Below are positions 27,197 through 51,412 of a stretch of 64,000 nt of DNA, in pieces. The notes below the pieces were generated by a model. The model was not told the DNA's origin. It did not search any database and saw only the letters and a list, made by a program, of their open reading frames with translations. The DNA lies in contig CALBPI010000062.1 in NCBI GenBank assembly GCA_937899415.1, positions 1 to 64,000 on the forward strand, given 5' to 3'. The number at the start of each line of letters is the position of its first letter. Position 1 is the stretch's first letter. Position numbers and translations under genes: made by a program. The DNA is from an uncultured Gammaproteobacteria bacterium (GTDB taxonomy: Bacteria; Pseudomonadota; Gammaproteobacteria; Steroidobacterales; Woeseiaceae).

Positions 27197-29188
27197 ATGT
27201 CCTTGGCAACCCCCGAACTCGCATTTCGGCAGCGTGTGCAACGCGCCGTTCTCGTCCTGGCCGCAGCCACGCTTGCGGCCTGCGGCGGGGGTGGTGGTGG
27301 TAGTGCACCGCCGCCACCGCCCGTCAACACGGCGCCCTCGGTTAACGCCGGCGGTGATCAGAACGTTGAGCAAAACAGCTCCGTCACGCTCACGGGTTCG
27401 GCCACCGATGACGGCGGTGCCGCCGGCTTGTCATTCTCATGGAGCCAGACAGGCGGGCCCTCGGTCACGCTCGTGGGTGGCGACACAGCGACCGCCAGCT
27501 TTACCGCACCGGCCACGACCGACTTCGTCGTCCTCCAATTCCAGCTCACTGTCAGTGACGGTTCCTTGAATTCGAGCGACACGGTGGGCGTGACTGTCTT
27601 TGATGACACGAGTACGCCCACAGTACTCGGCTCCGTAACGTATGAGTTCGTGCCGGGCTCGGCCGCGGGCCTGAATTACAACGCCACCGAAACGCGCCCC
27701 GTACGCGCGGCGACCGTTCAGGTCATCGATCAGGCCAGCAGCACCGTGCTCGCCGAGGATGTGCTCGACACGCAAGGCCAGTTCTCGCTGGACGTGCCCG
27801 CCAACACGGATGTGTTCGTGCGCGTACGCGCCGAGCTCAAACTGACGGGACAGCCCGGCTGGGACGTCGAGGTGCGTGATAACACCTCATCGACGAGCCT
27901 GCCACTCGAAGAGCGCCCGCTCTACGTGCTCGACGGCCAACCCTTCAACACGGGTACGGGGCCACAGAACATTACGCTCGCAGCGCGCACGGGCTGGGGT
28001 GGTTCGAGTTACACCGGCATTCGCTCGGCAGCGCCGTTTGCCATTCTCGATGCCATATATAAAGCCATCGAACTTGTGGTGGCAGTCGATCCCGATGCGG
28101 AGGTCGCGCCACTCGACGCGTACTGGTGTGTCATCTACTCCTCGGCCGGTACGACGGGGTGCTGTATAGCGACCGGTGAAATCGGTACCTCGTTCTACCG
28201 CGGAGACCTCGACTCGCTGTTCCTGCTCGGCCAGGCCAACGATGACACCGAAGAATTCGACAGCCATGTCGTCACGCACGAATGGGGTCATTATTTCGAA
28301 GACAACTTTGCGCGTTCCGACAGCATCGGTGGCTCGCACTCGCTGAACCAGCGGCTCGACCCGCGTCTCGCCTTCGGCGAAGGCTGGGGTAACGCCGTGG
28401 CCGGCATGATCCTCGGTGACCCGCTGTACTACGACACCTCAGGCAGTCAGCAGGATGCAGGCTTCAATTTCAGTGTCGACGACAACGCGGCCAGCGCATC
28501 GAACCGCGGCTTCTACAGCGAGCGCAGCGTACAGGCGATTCTCTACGACCTGTTTGACGCCGCCGACGACACGGGCGACACCGTGAACATCGGCTTCAAC
28601 TCGATTTACGAGGTGCTCGTCAACGAGCAGGCCAACGGCGTCCCCTTTACAACGATTTACCCGTTCCTCGAGGCCATCCGCGCCCGTGAGCCGGCTGCAG
28701 TGCCTGCGATCAACACGCTGGTGGCGCAGCAGCGCATCAAGTTCGACGCGGACGCCTACGGTACGGGTGAAACGGACGACGCCAGTGGCGGCGTGAATGT
28801 GCTGCCGATCTACACGGAAGTCACTGTGGGCGGCCCGGCCGTGAACATCTGCTCGAGCAACCGTTACGATCCCAACGAAGACGGCAACAAGCTCGGCATC
28901 CGTCGCTTTGCACGCTTTAACGTGCCGGCAGCGGGCAGCTACACGATCCAGGCCACGACGACCAATCCGCCGGCAGCAGGTCAGAGCGACCCCGACATCG
29001 CCGTGTTCCAGGTTGGATTTATCACCGCTGGGTTCAGCCCCGTGGCGGACAGCGAAACGCTGGTGACCAACCTTGCGGCGGGTGAGCATGTCCTCGAGAT
29101 TTACGAGTACTCATACCTGCGCGGCGACGTCCCGGCGATCAGCCAGCCTGACGACAACACCTGCTTCGATCTCACGATCAGCCCCTGA
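27197..29188 (+). CDS. PKD-domain lipoprotein with zincin-like HEWGH motif (putative metallopeptidase)
   Basis: Lipobox TLAACGGGGGG; NTAPSVNAGGDQNVEQNSSVTLTGSATDDGG (PKD/REJ-like); DSHVVTHEWGHYFEDNFARSD. Confidence 0.75.
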   Translation: MSLATPELAFRQRVQRAVLVLAAATLAACGGGGGGSAPPPPPVNTAPSVNAGGDQNVEQNSSVTLTGSATDDGGAAGLSFSWSQTGGPSVTLVGGDTATASFTAPATTDFVVLQFQLTVSDGSLNSSDTVGVTVFDDTSTPTVLGSVTYEFVPGSAAGLNYNATETRPVRAATVQVIDQASSTVLAEDVLDTQGQFSLDVPANTDVFVRVRAELKLTGQPGWDVEVRDNTSSTSLPLEERPLYVLDGQPFNTGTGPQNITLAARTGWGGSSYTGIRSAAPFAILDAIYKAIELVVAVDPDAEVAPLDAYWCVIYSSAGTTGCCIATGEIGTSFYRGDLDSLFLLGQANDDTEEFDSHVVTHEWGHYFEDNFARSDSIGGSHSLNQRLDPRLAFGEGWGNAVAGMILGDPLYYDTSGSQQDAGFNFSVDDNAASASNRGFYSERSVQAILYDLFDAADDTGDTVNIGFNSIYEVLVNEQANGVPFTTIYPFLEAIRAREPAAVPAINTLVAQQRIKFDADAYGTGETDDASGGVNVLPIYTEVTVGGPAVNICSSNRYDPNEDGNKLGIRRFARFNVPAAGSYTIQATTTNPPAAGQSDPDIAVFQVGFITAGFSPVADSETLVTNLAAGEHVLEIYEYSYLRGDVPAISQPDDNTCFDLTISP

Positions 29189-44893: not shown

Positions 44894-45802
44894 GTGAGCG
44901 AGGAACTGGAAGTCGCCATTGTGTTTGCCGATGTCGTCGGCAGCACACAACTGTATGAATCGCTGGGCGACGATCAGGCCCGCGCTGTCGTGCGCCAGTG
45001 CCTGGACATCATGATCAGCGCCACCGACTCGGGCGGTGGTGAGGTCATCAAGACCATGGGGGATGAGGTCATGTCGATCTTCCCCGACTCCGACGCCGCC
45101 ATTGGCGCGGCCGTCGAAATGCAGCAGCGCATCTCGGGCAGCAAGAACCTTGTGCCCGATGGCCAGGGCATCTCGATCCGCATCGGCTGCCACTTCGGTG
45201 TGGTGGCGCGCGAGCCCAACGATATTTTCGGCGCAGCCGTGCACACGGCCAACCGCATGACGTCCCAGGCCAAGGCGCGTCAAATCGTCACGACGGGTGC
45301 CATGGTCGAGCGGCTCGGGGACGCCTGGCGCAAGACCACGCGCCAGATCGACCTGGCCGTCGTCAAAGGCAAGAAGGACGAGGTCGCTCTGTTCGAAGTG
45401 CTTTGGCAGCCCAACGAGGAAGCCACGAGTGTCGTTCAGACGATCGGATTCTCGTCGGCTGACGAGACGCAGCGCCTCACGCTGTCATTTGCCGGTCGCA
45501 ACATGATGGTGGAACCCGAGCGCCAGCAGATCACGATGGGGCGTGCCGAGGACAATGACCTCGTCATCAAGGGCAACCTGATTTCGCGCGTGCACGCGCG
45601 CATCGAGAAACGCCGCAACAAGTACTTCCTCGTCGACGAGAGCACCAACGGGACGTTCGTCGTCACGATTGACGGTCAGGAATCCTTCGTGCGTCGCGAC
45701 AGCATGCAGTTGCAGGGCGAGGGCGTTATTGGTCTGGGCAAGGTAGCCAAGCCTGGCACCTCGCTGGCCGTGCACTACCTGCTCGAAGCCTCCGACGGCT
45801 GA
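44894..45802 (+). CDS. Adenylate/guanylate cyclase catalytic domain fused to FHA domain
   Basis: VAIVFADVVGSTQLYESLGDDQAR...KTMGDEVMSIFPDSDAA; FHA: ITMGRAEDNDLVIKGNLISRVHARIEKRRNKYFLVDESTNGTFV. Confidence 0.92.
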   Translation: MSEELEVAIVFADVVGSTQLYESLGDDQARAVVRQCLDIMISATDSGGGEVIKTMGDEVMSIFPDSDAAIGAAVEMQQRISGSKNLVPDGQGISIRIGCHFGVVAREPNDIFGAAVHTANRMTSQAKARQIVTTGAMVERLGDAWRKTTRQIDLAVVKGKKDEVALFEVLWQPNEEATSVVQTIGFSSADETQRLTLSFAGRNMMVEPERQQITMGRAEDNDLVIKGNLISRVHARIEKRRNKYFLVDESTNGTFVVTIDGQESFVRRDSMQLQGEGVIGLGKVAKPGTSLAVHYLLEASDG

Positions 45803-45814
45803 CGCCTCGACGCG

Positions 45815-47569
45815 TCAGCTCACCGCTTTCAACGCATCCCGAACCTTCAGCTGCGTTTCGCGCAGCCGGTCGGGCACGCGTGCGCCAAAGGCATCGAGGT
45901 ATTCACCAACGGCCGCGATCTCCGCGTCCCAGCCTGCCATATCGACATCCAGCAGCGTCTCGAGCGCACCTGGCGCCATGTCGAGATCATGGGCATCGAT
46001 GTCTGCTTCGTGCGGGAGGTGGCCGATAGCCGTGTCACGAGCCTCGAGCTGACCGTCGCAGCGGCCGATGATCCAGCGCAGGACGCGCAGGTTTTCGCCA
46101 AAGCCTGGCCAGAGGAATCGGCCGTCACTGTCCTGGCGGAACCAGTTGACATGAAAGACGCGTGGCAGCGTGTCGGAGCGCTCGGCGAAGGACAGCCAGT
46201 GCGCCCAGTAGTCGGCGAAGTTGTAGCCGCAGAACGGTTTCATCGCCATGGGGTCGCGGCGCACGACGCCGACGGCGCCCGTAGCCGCAGCCGTCGTTTC
46301 GGACGCTACGCCCGCCGCCACCATGACACCGTGGTGCCAGTCCTTGGCCTCGAACACGAGCGGGGCCAGCTGCTTGCGCCGTCCACCGAACACGATGGCC
46401 GAGATCGGTACGCCGTCGGGCGCCTCGGCCAACTCGCTATATACGGGGTTGGCGGTCGCCCGCACCGTGAAGCGTGCATTGGGATGCGCCGCGGGGCCGT
46501 CGCCCGAATAGGGGTTGCCGCGCCAGTCGGTGGCGGGCGTACCTTCGCCCTTGTCTTCCCACCACGGACAGTTGTCCTCGGTGAGTGCGACGTTAGTGAA
46601 AATGGTGTCGCTGCGAATCGTGTCGAAGGCGTTCTTGTTGGTTTTCTCGTTCGTGCCCGGTACGACGCCGAAATAGCCCGCCTCGGGATTGATCGCGCGC
46701 AGCTGGCCTGCATCGTCGAGATGCAGCCAGGCGATGTCGTCACCCAGTGTCCAGATCTTCCATCCCGGCTGCGAGGCCGGCGGGATCAGCATGGCCAGGT
46801 TGGTCTTGCCGCAGGCAGATGGAAAGGCGCAAGCCAGGTAGTGGGTGTCCCCCGCGGGGCTCTGCACGCCCACGATCAGCATGTGCTCCGCGAGCCAGCC
46901 TTCCTTTCGCGCCTGCCAACTGGCAATACGCAGGGCGTGGCACTTCTTCCCGAGCAGCGCGTTGCCGCCATAGCCCGAGCCGTAGCTCTTGATCTCGAGC
47001 GACTCTGGGAAGTGCATGATGAACCGTTGATCAGGGTCCAGTGTGCCCGTCGAGTGCAGGCCCTTCACGTAGTCGCCGTCGCGCTCGATCCGCGCGAGGG
47101 CGGCATCGCCCATGCGGGTCATCAGCTTCATGTTGACGACCACGTAGGGGCTGTCCGTGATCTCGACGCCACAGCGGGCGTAAGGCGAGTCGATCGGCCC
47201 CATGCAGTAGGGCACGACGTACATCGTGCGCCCGCGCATGGCGCCATTGAACAACGCGTCGATCTTGGCGTGCGCCGCGTCCGGTGCCATCCAGTTGTTG
47301 TTGGGCCCCGCATCCTCTTCGTCGCTCGTGCAGACAAAGGTCAGGTGCTCGACGCGTGCCACATCGTCGGGGTCCGAGCGGTGCAGGTAGCAGCCCGGGT
47401 AGCGGTCCTGGTTCAGCGGTAGCAGGGTACCGTCGTCGGTCATCTGGGCGACGAGCCGGTGGTATTCGGCGTCGCTGCCATCACACCAGACAATACGGTC
47501 AGGTTGCGTGCGCGCGGCAACTGCATCGACCCATGAATTCAGGTCCTGCAATCGGCTGTGTTGGGGCAT
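45815..47569 (-). CDS. pckG: Phosphoenolpyruvate carboxykinase (GTP)
   Basis: MPQHSRLQDLNSWVDAVA...; LACAFPSACGKTNLAMLIPP; GTP-dependent PEPCK pattern. Confidence 0.96.
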   Translation of the reverse strand: MPQHSRLQDLNSWVDAVAARTQPDRIVWCDGSDAEYHRLVAQMTDDGTLLPLNQDRYPGCYLHRSDPDDVARVEHLTFVCTSDEEDAGPNNNWMAPDAAHAKIDALFNGAMRGRTMYVVPYCMGPIDSPYARCGVEITDSPYVVVNMKLMTRMGDAALARIERDGDYVKGLHSTGTLDPDQRFIMHFPESLEIKSYGSGYGGNALLGKKCHALRIASWQARKEGWLAEHMLIVGVQSPAGDTHYLACAFPSACGKTNLAMLIPPASQPGWKIWTLGDDIAWLHLDDAGQLRAINPEAGYFGVVPGTNEKTNKNAFDTIRSDTIFTNVALTEDNCPWWEDKGEGTPATDWRGNPYSGDGPAAHPNARFTVRATANPVYSELAEAPDGVPISAIVFGGRRKQLAPLVFEAKDWHHGVMVAAGVASETTAAATGAVGVVRRDPMAMKPFCGYNFADYWAHWLSFAERSDTLPRVFHVNWFRQDSDGRFLWPGFGENLRVLRWIIGRCDGQLEARDTAIGHLPHEADIDAHDLDMAPGALETLLDVDMAGWDAEIAAVGEYLDAFGARVPDRLRETQLKVRDALKAVS

Positions 47570-47652
47570 GGTTTCGCGGTCGTTTGACGGGGCCGCGATT
47601 ATAGACCAGCGCTTGGGCGCGGTGGTGATGTCAGCGCTGTCAATCGTACGCA

Positions 47653-47692
47653 CAAAAAAAACGCTGACACCCCGGGGGGGAGGTGTCAGCGT
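47653..47692 (-). terminator. Rho-independent terminator downstream of the phasin gene
   Basis: Minus strand ACGCTGACACC-TCCCCCCCGG-GGTGTCAGCGTTTTTTTTG: 11-bp stem, U8. Confidence 0.92.
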
Positions 47693-47760
47693 CAGGTTGC
47701 GCTGGCCGTCGGGGGGGGGAGATGGCCAGTGTTGGGTAACCTCAGGGGGAGAGGTTGAGA
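47653..47760 (-). ncRNA. Candidate 3'UTR-derived RNA: three consecutive hairpins with C-rich loops
   Basis: Minus strand AACCUC-UCCCCCU-GAGGUU; CUGGCC-AUCUCCCCCCCCCGAC-GGCCAG; ACGCUGACACC-UCCCCCCCGG-GGUGUCAGCGU-U8, starting right after the phasin stop codon. Confidence 0.5.
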
Positions 47761-48324
47761 TCAGGCAGCCGTTACCGACTCCGTGACCTCTACTACCTTT
47801 TTCGCAGCCGTTTTAGCGGCCGTTTTTGCTTTAGTTTTAGCTTTTTTTGCCGGTGCCTTACGGGCCGTCTTCTTGGCAGCCGTCTTGGCACGCTTCGGTG
47901 CAGCGGTCTTGCCCAGGCCGGAAACCACGCCGGTCACGTCCGTTGCAGCGCTGCGAACGAGGTCGAAGGCTTCACGGATGTCAGTGATGTAGCCGCGAAC
48001 GACCTTCGGCAGCGTGTCGCGCTGGTAGGCCAGCAGCGAGCCAACCGACTCTGCGCGGGCAGCGGCGTCGAAGCCACCAGCCAGTGCGTCGAGGCTGCCC
48101 TGGACGCTCTTGGTCTGCAGCTCGATCAGGTCTTTCGACAGGCGGAAGCCGATGCCGTTGACGTCAATGCTGGCCTTCGAAAGCTTGGCGACCGGCTTCT
48201 TGCCCGTAGCGATGGCTTTGCCAGCCTGGCCAACGCGTTCCTGCGTGGCGTCAACAGCGGTGTTCATGGTCGTACGTGCCGAGTCGGCGACGCGCGTCAG
48301 CGCGGTTTCGATCTGATCTTTCAC
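47761..48324 (-). CDS. Phasin family protein with Lys/Ala-rich histone H1-like tail
   Basis: VKDQIETALTRVADSARTTMNTAVDATQERV...; tail PKRAKTAAKKTARKAPAKKAKTKAKTAAKTAAKKV; GTG start at 48324. Confidence 0.8.
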   Translation of the reverse strand: MKDQIETALTRVADSARTTMNTAVDATQERVGQAGKAIATGKKPVAKLSKASIDVNGIGFRLSKDLIELQTKSVQGSLDALAGGFDAAARAESVGSLLAYQRDTLPKVVRGYITDIREAFDLVRSAATDVTGVVSGLGKTAAPKRAKTAAKKTARKAPAKKAKTKAKTAAKTAAKKVVEVTESVTAA

Positions 48325-48620
48325 GATGTGGTCCCTCAATGGTGCGGTGCAGCAAATGTTGCAGCGCACAATATGGCAGCGTCATGGTGCTGTCAACCTT
48401 TTTTAGGTAAGTTTTTGGCTTGAGTTCGTCCGGCGCACGGCAGCGTCCCGGAATCCTTAAGCACTGCTTAGCCAGAATGAGACCTGGTTCACACAGAGGT
48501 CGTGAATACGCTCACAGATTCACGGTCGTAACACCCTGATCCATAGGCTTTAGCGTCCCGCTCAGGGACAATCTTATGGTGAAACCGGGGTGTACCCGGG
48601 AATCGGGACAAAGCAGGCTT

Positions 48621-49625
48621 ATGACAATCAGAAACGGCGTGTGCGCGACAGGGACGGGGCGCTTTCTCGCATCCATCATTCTGGCCATGCTGTCAGCAGG
48701 CGCCGGTGCCGCCGGCACACTGGCGGGTACGGACATCGCCAACACGGCCAGCGTCAGCTACGAGCTCGACGGTAATCCGGTCACCCAGGACTCCAACACG
48801 GTCACGATCAGCGTCGCCGAGATTCTCGACGTCACCGTGGTGCTGGTCAGTCCGCAGCAGTCGGTCAGCCCCGGAGACACGGCGCAGGCGCTTGTCTTCA
48901 CGGTCACGAATACGGGCAACGGCCAGGAGTCGTTCACGTTCAGCGTCGACAACGCGCTGGCCGGCGACGATTTCGATCCGATCGCGGCAAACCCCAACAT
49001 CTATTTCGACAGTGATGCGAGTGGCGACTTCAGCGCGGCGGATACGCCCTACGTACCGGGCAGCGGCGATCCTGACCTCGCCCCCGACGCCGCAATCACA
49101 CTCATCGTCGTCAACGACATTCCCACAGGTCTCGCCAATGGGGATCGTGGCACAAGCGCACTGACCGCTGTCGCTGCCACCGGCAGTGGTGCGCCGGGCA
49201 CGCTGTTCGCGGGCGCTGGTGCCGGCGGCGTCGACGCTGTTGCCGGCGCGAGCGGCGCCACCGCGACGGCAACCGGCGAATACCTCGTTTCCGACGTGGC
49301 ACTGGTGCTCAACAAAGTCGCGCTCGTGCTGGACCCGTTCGGCGGTGACCAGCCCGTACCCGGGGCCACGATTCGTTACACGATCACGGCCGAAGTCACG
49401 GGCACCGGGACGGCCGTTGCCGTTACGGTTGAGGATCAGATCCCGGCCAACACGAGCTATGTCCCGGGCAGCCTGACGCTCAATGCGGCCGGCCTCAGCG
49501 ATGCGGCCGATGGCGATGCGGGCGTGTACGAGGCGGCACCGACGCCGCTCGTGCGCGTGACGCTGGGCGACCTGGTCGCCGCGGACGGTGTGCAGACCAT
49601 CATTTTCGAAGTACTCATCGACTGA
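48621..49625 (+). CDS. DUF11-domain secreted/surface protein
   Basis: AGTLAGTDIANTASVSYELDGNPVTQDSNTVTISVAEILDVTVV...; DQIPANTSYVPGSLTLNA. Confidence 0.85.
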   Translation: MTIRNGVCATGTGRFLASIILAMLSAGAGAAGTLAGTDIANTASVSYELDGNPVTQDSNTVTISVAEILDVTVVLVSPQQSVSPGDTAQALVFTVTNTGNGQESFTFSVDNALAGDDFDPIAANPNIYFDSDASGDFSAADTPYVPGSGDPDLAPDAAITLIVVNDIPTGLANGDRGTSALTAVAATGSGAPGTLFAGAGAGGVDAVAGASGATATATGEYLVSDVALVLNKVALVLDPFGGDQPVPGATIRYTITAEVTGTGTAVAVTVEDQIPANTSYVPGSLTLNAAGLSDAADGDAGVYEAAPTPLVRVTLGDLVAADGVQTIIFEVLID

Positions 49626-49676
49626 CGCCACCGAAGTCGTGGCGATGCAATGACAGCAATTATTTAGGAGCGAACC

Positions 49677-50162
49677 ATGAACCGAGCACTGACCCTACTG
49701 GCAGCCGTGTTCTCACTGAGCCTGGCGGCGCCCGCCCTGGCCCAGGAGGGCAAGATTGAACTCAAGAGCATCGTCGAGAAAGAAGTGCGCGTCGTCAATG
49801 ACGCGGGCGAAGAGGTCGTGCAGCTCGTGACCGCCGACAAGGTCGTGCCCGGTGACGTGGTGATCTACACGGTCACCTACACGAATGTAGCCGACCAGGC
49901 CGTCGACAATGTCGTCATCACCAACCCGATCAACGACGCGCTGAGCTACGTCGTCGACTCGGCCTTTGCGCCGGGTGCAGACGTGAGCTTTTCCGTTGAC
50001 GGTGGCGCCTCATTCGATGCGCTCGATGCACTGACCGTGGAACGTGACGGCACCGCGATCGCCGCCAGCGTCGACGATCTAACACACATCCGCTGGATCC
50101 TGCGCGAGCCGCTCGATCCGGGTGCACAGGGCTTCGCCCGATTCCGCGCGCGCCTCAATTAG
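49677..50162 (+). CDS. Small DUF11-domain secreted protein
   Basis: Signal peptide; GDVVIYTVTYTNVADQAVDNVVITNPINDALSYVVDS. Confidence 0.88.
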   Translation: MNRALTLLAAVFSLSLAAPALAQEGKIELKSIVEKEVRVVNDAGEEVVQLVTADKVVPGDVVIYTVTYTNVADQAVDNVVITNPINDALSYVVDSAFAPGADVSFSVDGGASFDALDALTVERDGTAIAASVDDLTHIRWILREPLDPGAQGFARFRARLN

Positions 50163-50302
50163 GCGCGACCAGATTCGCCCGGTAAGGGACCACCGGGCTC
50201 AACGATAACAGGGACTTCCAGGCCGCTGCGCAGGGCGGTTTGGGGCATCCGAGCGACCTGCGCATTGGCAAGAGCAAATTAATGCAAGACAGGAGAAGCG
50301 AA

Positions 50303-51412
50303 ATGACGCTTGCACGCACACCCCTGGGCCGTATTGCGGCTTCGGGTCTCGTAGCGATCGCGTTCTCATTCGCGGGGACGGCACAAGCTGCCGGCACCGC
50401 GGCGGGGACCTCGATCGAAAACGTGGCTACCGTCGACTACGAAGTCGGCTCGATCGCACAGACGCCGATCGAATCGTCTCCGACGGGTAACTCCACGCCT
50501 GGCGTCAGCAACGGTACGGCAACGGCGTTCCTCGTCGATAACCGTGTCGATCTGACGCTCGTGGAAACCGACAGCGCGCCCACCCCGGTCAGCCCGGGAC
50601 AGGCCGACGTCGTGGCTACATTCAGCCTGACCAACACCGGTAACGAGGCGCAGGGCTACGCACTGGTCGCAGCCAACCTCGCAGCCGGCGCAGTCGTTCA
50701 CGGCAACACCGATGATCAGCAGGTCAACAATCTGCGCGCCTTCGCCGATACCGACGGTAGTGGCGACTTCTCGGGCGGTGACGCCCAGTTCGTCGATACG
50801 CTGGCGGCCGACGGCAACATCCTTGTGTTCGTCGTCGCCGACGTGCCGATCGGTGTGGTTAATGGAGAGTTCGCCAATGTCAGCATGACCGCAACGACTG
50901 CGGTTGCGGGCACGAGCGGCGCCACGATTGTCACGGAAACCACGGGCGGCAACACCGCCGGTGTTGACGTCGTGTTTGCCGATGCTGGCAACGACGGTCT
51001 CGAGACGGCTGAAGACGGCTTCGCCGTATCGTCGGCCGCACTGACCGTAACCAAGTCGGACGCGATTATCAGCGACCCGATCAATGGCACCACGGACCCG
51101 CTGTACATCCCGGGTGCGGTCGTTGAGTACACGATCACGATCGTGAACACGGGTACGGCCGATGCCGAACAGGTCAGCGTCACGGACGTCATCGATGGCG
51201 ATCTGACCCTGGCACTGGGCGAATACGGCGGCGGCGCTGATATCGAGTTTGACCTCGGTGGCGCCACGACGGGCTGCACGGCGAACAACGCCGACGCTGA
51301 CCCCTGTGGCCTCACGGGTTCGACGCTTGAAGCCGATGTGAACGCGACGCTGGGTACCAACCCGGGTGTCGATGACACGCTGGTGGTGCGTTTCCGCGTG
51401 ACCATCAACTGA
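50303..51412 (+). CDS. DUF11-domain secreted/surface protein
   Basis: AGTAAGTSIENVATVDYEVGS...VEYTITIVNTGTADAEQVSVTDVIDGDLTL. Confidence 0.88.
   Translation: MTLARTPLGRIAASGLVAIAFSFAGTAQAAGTAAGTSIENVATVDYEVGSIAQTPIESSPTGNSTPGVSNGTATAFLVDNRVDLTLVETDSAPTPVSPGQADVVATFSLTNTGNEAQGYALVAANLAAGAVVHGNTDDQQVNNLRAFADTDGSGDFSGGDAQFVDTLAADGNILVFVVADVPIGVVNGEFANVSMTATTAVAGTSGATIVTETTGGNTAGVDVVFADAGNDGLETAEDGFAVSSAALTVTKSDAIISDPINGTTDPLYIPGAVVEYTITIVNTGTADAEQVSVTDVIDGDLTLALGEYGGGADIEFDLGGATTGCTANNADADPCGLTGSTLEADVNATLGTNPGVDDTLVVRFRVTIN

Follow-up and report, generated by a model that had tools for sequence, protein, structure and literature searches.

The window, as the entire analysed stretch of 64,000 nucleotides is called here, encodes on its minus strand a phasin, a protein that coats bioplastic granules, followed by a run of hairpins and by the gene for a GTP-dependent phosphoenolpyruvate (PEP) carboxykinase (Table 1). 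The phasin scores 28.2 bits against the Phasin_2 model (cut-off 24.9), its TGA stop codon occupies positions 47763-47761, and the carboxykinase gene begins approximately 85 nt past the hairpins, a synteny also seen in relatives, in which a TATAAT-like element of its own lies upstream of the carboxykinase gene. Downstream of the phasin promoter, TGC/GCA repeats (~48368-48341) shared with relatives are present, which we take to resemble a PhaR box, and a TATTGTGCGCYGCAACAAT..GCTGCAC pattern near the promoter recurs in relatives. The source genome, 3.94 Mb in 102 contigs and the sole species of its genus in the genome set, possesses both hfq and phaR. A run of genes for secreted proteins lies beside the phasin gene in divergent orientation at 48576-51412 (plus strand); their repeated VxNTG/DxxxP motifs look like DUF11-type surface repeats. 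Convergent with the carboxykinase gene, a protein with a class III adenylate/guanylate cyclase-like domain and a C-terminal FHA-like domain is encoded at 44894-45802 (plus strand).

Table 1. Features of the phasin locus, in window coordinates.
Feature	Position	Strand	Basis or detail
Phasin promoter, TTGACA-17-TATTGT	48368..48396	-	No other promoter-like site within 47500-48500 (expectation 0.2)
Phasin gene, GTG start, 187 aa, Lys/Ala-rich tail	47761..48324	-	PF09361 Phasin_2
Candidate C-rich-loop 3'UTR RNA, ~107 nt, phasin stop to U8 end	47654..47760	-	Candidate 3'UTR-derived sRNA
Hairpin 1, loop UCCCCCU	47738..47756	-	AACCUC 47756-47751, GAGGUU 47743-47738
Hairpin 2, loop AUCUCCCCCCCCCGAC	47702..47729	-	CUGGCC 47729-47724, GGCCAG 47707-47702
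Hairpin 3 with UCCCCCCC, intrinsic terminator and U8	47654..47692	-	Fold
PEP carboxykinase (GTP), gene 3' of phasin	45815..47569	-	NF003253, 833.9 bits, cut-off 504

Directly behind the phasin stop codon, three stem-loops with C-rich loops follow one another on the minus strand, as the preliminary description had stated, and reading of the sequence and folding agree on them. Hairpin 1 contains CUCCCCCUGA, ten bases identical to a tract that is nearly invariant in the genus g70 (see below), and the arms of hairpin 3, ACGCUGACACC (47692-47682) and GGUGUCAGCGU (47671-47661), enclose the loop UCCCCCCCGG and are followed by U8, which extends to 47654. All three hairpins are part of the minimum-free-energy fold, which at -50 kcal/mol for 131 nt is far more stable than dinucleotide shuffles (-31.5 +/- 3.4 kcal/mol; z = -5.49, none of 200 as stable). 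The last hairpin is indeed an intrinsic terminator with U8, but the C-rich loop formerly ascribed to it is partly taken up by the stem, whose 14 pairs include part of the C tract and leave a loop of 6 nt. Most accessible is the tract in the loop of hairpin 2, unpaired to ~84% as compared to ~60% in the terminator hairpin; across phasin UTRs, partition-function folds leave C tracts 0.64 unpaired versus 0.41 for the remaining UTR. The U8 end of hairpin 3 is a possible Hfq-binding 3' end.

A scan of 47500-48500 found a single promoter-like site, the phasin promoter, and none between it and the terminator, the phasin coding sequence included; the hairpins thus belong to the phasin mRNA. From the stop codon to U8, the RNA shares the terminator of the mRNA, and neither a further terminator nor a gene boundary separates it from the coding sequence, as is characteristic of 3'UTR-derived sRNAs. 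The assignment of the element to the phasin transcript, already proposed in the preliminary description, is equally borne out by relatives: in the family f11, most phasin copies have no carboxykinase gene downstream and the tract is still there, therefore it belongs to phasin and not to the carboxykinase. A role as part of the carboxykinase promoter was ruled out on the same ground and by the lack of the tract in most f16 genomes that keep the carboxykinase gene.

Phasin loci were gathered from 47 of the 397 genomes of the order and the stop-to-terminator stretch was read in each; the window phasin alone gave no match, while a 5-row alignment led to eight named loci. The three-hairpin layout was found among the phasin UTRs of this set in the window only, which represents a single-species genus, and an alignment of the UTRs of the window, f4 and g4 yielded no common structure. 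What is conserved is a C-rich or CU-rich tract complementary to the Shine-Dalgarno (SD) sequence, which lies between phasin stop and terminator, appears in variants such as UCCCCCU, CUCCCCC, CUCCCUCC and CCCCUCCCC, and is positioned before or within the terminator. In relatives, conservation holds for the tract, which is kept as stems turn over, and fails for the layout. Three families together contribute 23 phasin 3'UTRs, 21 of which have a strong C tract: 11/12 in Woeseiaceae (f1; UTRs with a recognised terminator), 4/4 in f4 and 6/7 in f11. The order controls, terminators that follow other open reading frames in the window and in 20 randomly chosen 20-kb pieces of the order, show it in one of 29 stop-to-terminator stretches, and the class controls in one of 34. 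With relatives counted as independent, as in all family-wide control comparisons here, the difference between phasin and order control UTRs corresponds to a Fisher probability of ~3e-11. Within the window, the phasin UTR is the sole one with a C tract of this strength among the stop-to-terminator stretches found. The tract is absent in one Woeseiaceae genome, G008, and absent or nearly so in the families f5, f8, f10, f12 and f15 and most of f16. An error in the length of the G tract, a danger named at the outset, is unlikely, because relatives from separate assemblies carry an equivalent tract.

The genus g70 of family f11 displays the tract in its most constant form. Behind nine phasin copies (a tenth is truncated by the end of its contig), CUCCCCCUGAUU and the terminator stem are nearly invariant, with the terminator GCGCCCUCC-GGAGGGCGC-U8 following CUCCCCCUGAUU, while the ~50 nt before CUCCCCCUGAUU have diverged among the copies. 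One copy, L119, carries a compensatory change, with G-C pairs swapped in the terminator stem.

Beyond the order, PF09361 is present in 73 of 276 genomes of a class-wide sample, in which pyrimidine-rich, SD-complementary tracts are located behind phasin in several further families; two of them, f26 and f79, were examined closely. Family f26, with at least 54 genera, looks like Burkholderiaceae as judged from family size and phasin type. Its phasin UTRs contain a broad motif (CCUCC, CUCCC or CCCCC) in 24 of 29 cases versus 7 of 34 class controls, and the best conserved form consists of two hairpins with CUCCCUCCC-like loops, the stems of which covary on both sides (GCGCGG/CCGCGC, GCGUGG/CCACGC, GCACGG/CCGUGC). 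In f79, all 20 phasin UTRs possess a UCCUCC-type motif, mostly as the (UCCUCC)n loop of a hairpin; an alignment of 18 shows double compensatory changes at all 11 stem pairs with 96.8% of cells paired, and neither any of 500 shuffles nor any slid control comes near the observed covariation. These comparative sequence data are strong evidence that the phasin 3'UTRs of f79 are selected as a structured RNA predicted to present an anti-SD loop. Stems are unrelated between the different families, and the C-/CU-rich loops, which recur behind phasin in no fewer than five families of Gammaproteobacteria, look capable of covering the ribosome-binding sites of other mRNAs. The f79 hairpin (L233-L256, L135, L136) is absent from Rfam and constitutes a candidate new RNA family.

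Could the element be a mere strong terminator in a high-GC genome, its C tracts compositional or acting at the DNA level as G-quadruplex or i-motif? C tracts often land in loops where few G are free, and the opposite DNA strand of the window UTR carries several G runs. On the other hand, such tracts are rare in the order control UTRs (one of 29), a strong G tract is never seen in the phasin UTRs of f1, f4 and f11, where the C tract is always on the transcribed strand, the UCCUCC loops of f79 sit on covarying stems, and a quadruplex cannot arise from a single tract such as that of g70. Conservation largely refutes this explanation, to which we attach very little probability, and we are highly confident that the phasin 3'UTR contains a functional, conserved RNA element.

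All Rfam matches of the window are below threshold, with 38.2 bits for ar14 (RF02344, gathering score 58.8), 23.5 bits for CcsR1 (RF02791, 65.3) and 29.7 bits for 6C; no match was obtained for the sX13 family in the scan of the window, for RF02278 (gathering score 50) at E <= 5 or for RF00519 (MmgR/suhB, gathering score 41). A genome-wide search with the ar14 model did not list the window locus and gave 18 bits for the best other place. In relatives, the f26 phasin 3'UTRs reach 35-41 bits against ar14, likewise under its gathering score, RF02278 scores 27.8 bits in the L209 and 35.1 bits in the L128 phasin 3'UTRs, both below 50, and the phasin UTRs of f79 gave nothing relevant above threshold. 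In f4, phasin 3'UTRs match mmgR at 37.2 bits (L025:1806-1880) and 28.0 bits (L019:2064-2124), under the threshold of 41; from these scores, an evolutionary link between phasin 3'UTR and MmgR is possible. Such sub-threshold matches might be read as the trace of a diverged member of a known family, be it alpha-r14/cuckoo, CcsR, 6C, sX13, Burkholderia RF02278 or mmgR. This is highly improbable, as it is already disfavoured by the failure to reach any gathering score, different relatives match different families, as would be expected of a common C-rich hairpin form and not of common descent, and the genomic neighbours differ (polA for sX13, a DUF1127 gene for CcsR). The likeness to cuckoo and CcsR RNAs put forward initially consequently does not extend to Rfam membership, as both models stay below their gathering scores, while a working of the sX13 or alpha-r14/cuckoo type is plausible.

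Our favoured reading, which we consider fairly probable, is that the element is a regulatory RNA derived from the 3'UTR, co-made with phasin and acting in trans as an anti-SD RNA; we infer its processing, any use of Hfq, the action in trans and the targets. Upon synthesis of the storage polymer, phasin would be transcribed from its PhaR-type promoter and transcription would stop at the terminator of hairpin 3, after which the ~107-nt 3'UTR might either remain on the mRNA or be released from it by, for example, RNase E. By pairing with G-rich SD regions, the single-stranded C-rich loops could then keep ribosomes off other mRNAs. Phasin production would thereby be tied to a brake on translation, with nutrient uptake and catabolism as the processes most plausibly affected.

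Alternatively, the element might act solely in cis, with the C-rich loops pairing with the SD sequence of the phasin mRNA itself or tuning its decay, an autoregulation without a separate sRNA. Wherever the element occurs, the phasin transcript carries it, phasin leaders possess GAGGGA/GGAGA-type sites near the start which allow ~4-6 nt of pairing with CUCC/UCCC, and action on phasin's own mRNA would leave a largely identical signature. Also the sRNA MmgR lowers phasin levels in Sinorhizobium meliloti (PMC8401924). Nevertheless, only ~4 contiguous pairs can be formed with the GAGGGA of the window, and multiple redundant loops combined with a strong U8 terminator are more typical of trans-acting RNAs, which makes a purely cis-acting element unlikely.

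With respect to targets of a trans-acting RNA, CAGGGGGAG, the perfect complement of CUCCCCCUG, is located 3-9 nt before an ATG at 34 places in 12 genomes, compared to seven for the reversed pattern. Approximately 22 of these places open a sizeable open reading frame, among which, as read from the translations, five are TonB-dependent-receptor-like and three MFS-transporter-like; no TonB receptor was seen among 311 background genes of the order, a set not matched for SD sequence. This suggests uptake systems as putative targets, with the candidates picked post hoc and the receptors being paralogues. The five receptor-like genes with a ribosome-binding site of exactly CAGGGGGAG, complementary to the phasin-UTR loop, are found at L291, L295, L300, L304 and L313. 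The hfq, phaR and carboxykinase leaders of the source genome contain no G tract matching the loops of the phasin UTR, and an hfq target in the style of sX13 is therefore not suggested. The PhaC_N domain is absent in 11 of 13 genomes searched, the source genome included, which probably reflects the use of another synthase class.

A second multi-hairpin C-loop RNA with a terminator is located elsewhere in the source genome (L004:1466-1690, contig C59 ~27562-27790). Its loops are GCCUCCCCCCCCUUUGUU, ACCCCCCCCUUA and UUCCCCCCUCC, it has no Rfam match, and it immediately follows the gene for a small secreted protein of ~96 aa, with a CnoX-like gene of the thioredoxin fold downstream. C-loop RNAs may thus form a set in this genome, to which the phasin UTR would belong. 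Three matches to CTCCCCCCC on contig C80 and others on C72 and C94 were discarded as further copies, being homopolymer stretches close to or at the ends of contigs; the C/T homopolymer-like sequence on these contigs is probably an assembly-edge artefact.

On a broader scale, the phasin 3'UTR might have been repeatedly turned into an anti-SD RNA with unrelated stems, in Woeseiaceae, f4, f11, the Burkholderiaceae-like family, f79 and probably others, such that the formation of storage granules would emit a general translational brake and a PHB-coupled sRNA class not described before would come to light, a proposition that we regard as evenly balanced. Carbon storage may hence be wired to a regulatory RNA, and a standing association of anti-SD sRNAs with phasin across several families with unrelated stems, if true, would suggest that storage of carbon and control of translation are linked in general. 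Bioplastic production is also concerned, as engineered strains in which phasin is deleted or replaced would lose the 3'UTR RNA or carry it in changed form. The link is directly testable in cultured PHB producers.

C-/CU-rich anti-SD sRNAs are known singly. In the part of the literature covered, the silence of which is no proof, no phasin 3'UTR sRNA was found, and a review of post-transcriptional control of PHA discusses MmgR, ArrF and Crc, but no such RNA (PMC8401924). MmgR (alpha-r8), with a CU-rich stretch and a terminator, controls PHB and phasin (PMC8401924); unlike the window RNA, it is trans-encoded, alphaproteobacterial and repressed by PhaR/AniA. The double-hairpin RNAs ncS03, ncS05, ncS27 and ncS62 of Burkholderia (RF02278), whose CU-rich stretches are predicted to base-pair with sites of ribosome binding, slow growth (PMC5688073); like Bordetella S17 (PMC11722255), they consist of two hairpins with such stretches and have been linked to carbon uptake and the arrest of growth. 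Those members that have been studied are, according to their descriptions, transcribed on their own, in contrast to the phasin 3'UTRs, of which those of f26 mostly lack an RF02278 match (one at 27.8 bits).

Closest in architecture are sX13, alpha-r14 and the CcsR RNAs. The ~115-nt sX13 of Xanthomonadaceae folds into three stable stems with C-rich apical loops (4C, 4C, 5C), is always located downstream of polA and represses, independently of Hfq, mRNAs with G-rich motifs near the start (PMC3771888). The window RNA equally has three C-rich-loop stems and is gammaproteobacterial, but whereas sX13 is separately encoded next to polA, it is a phasin 3'UTR upstream of a PEP carboxykinase gene. Alpha-r14/cuckoo (NfeR1) RNAs combine three hairpins and an anti-SD motif in the loops with variable stems (PMC10746234). 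The window RNA, for which ar14 is the best Rfam match, shares the three hairpins with the last one as terminator; the alphaproteobacterial RNAs carry CCUCCUCCC in their loops, in contrast to UCCCCC(CCC) in those of the window (UCCCCCU, AUCUCCCCCCCCCGAC, UCCCCCCCGG). CcsR1-4 of Rhodobacter, sRNAs with C-rich motifs, are cotranscribed with and downstream of the small protein gene ccaF1 and released by RNase E (PMC10253847); their host gene encodes a DUF1127 protein, that of the window RNA a PF09361 phasin. The phasin 3'UTR RNA plausibly functions like these known anti-SD RNAs, but by Rfam score belongs to none of their families. As a phasin-coupled class it is novel, acting in a manner that would itself be known from RNAs such as sX13 and alpha-r14.
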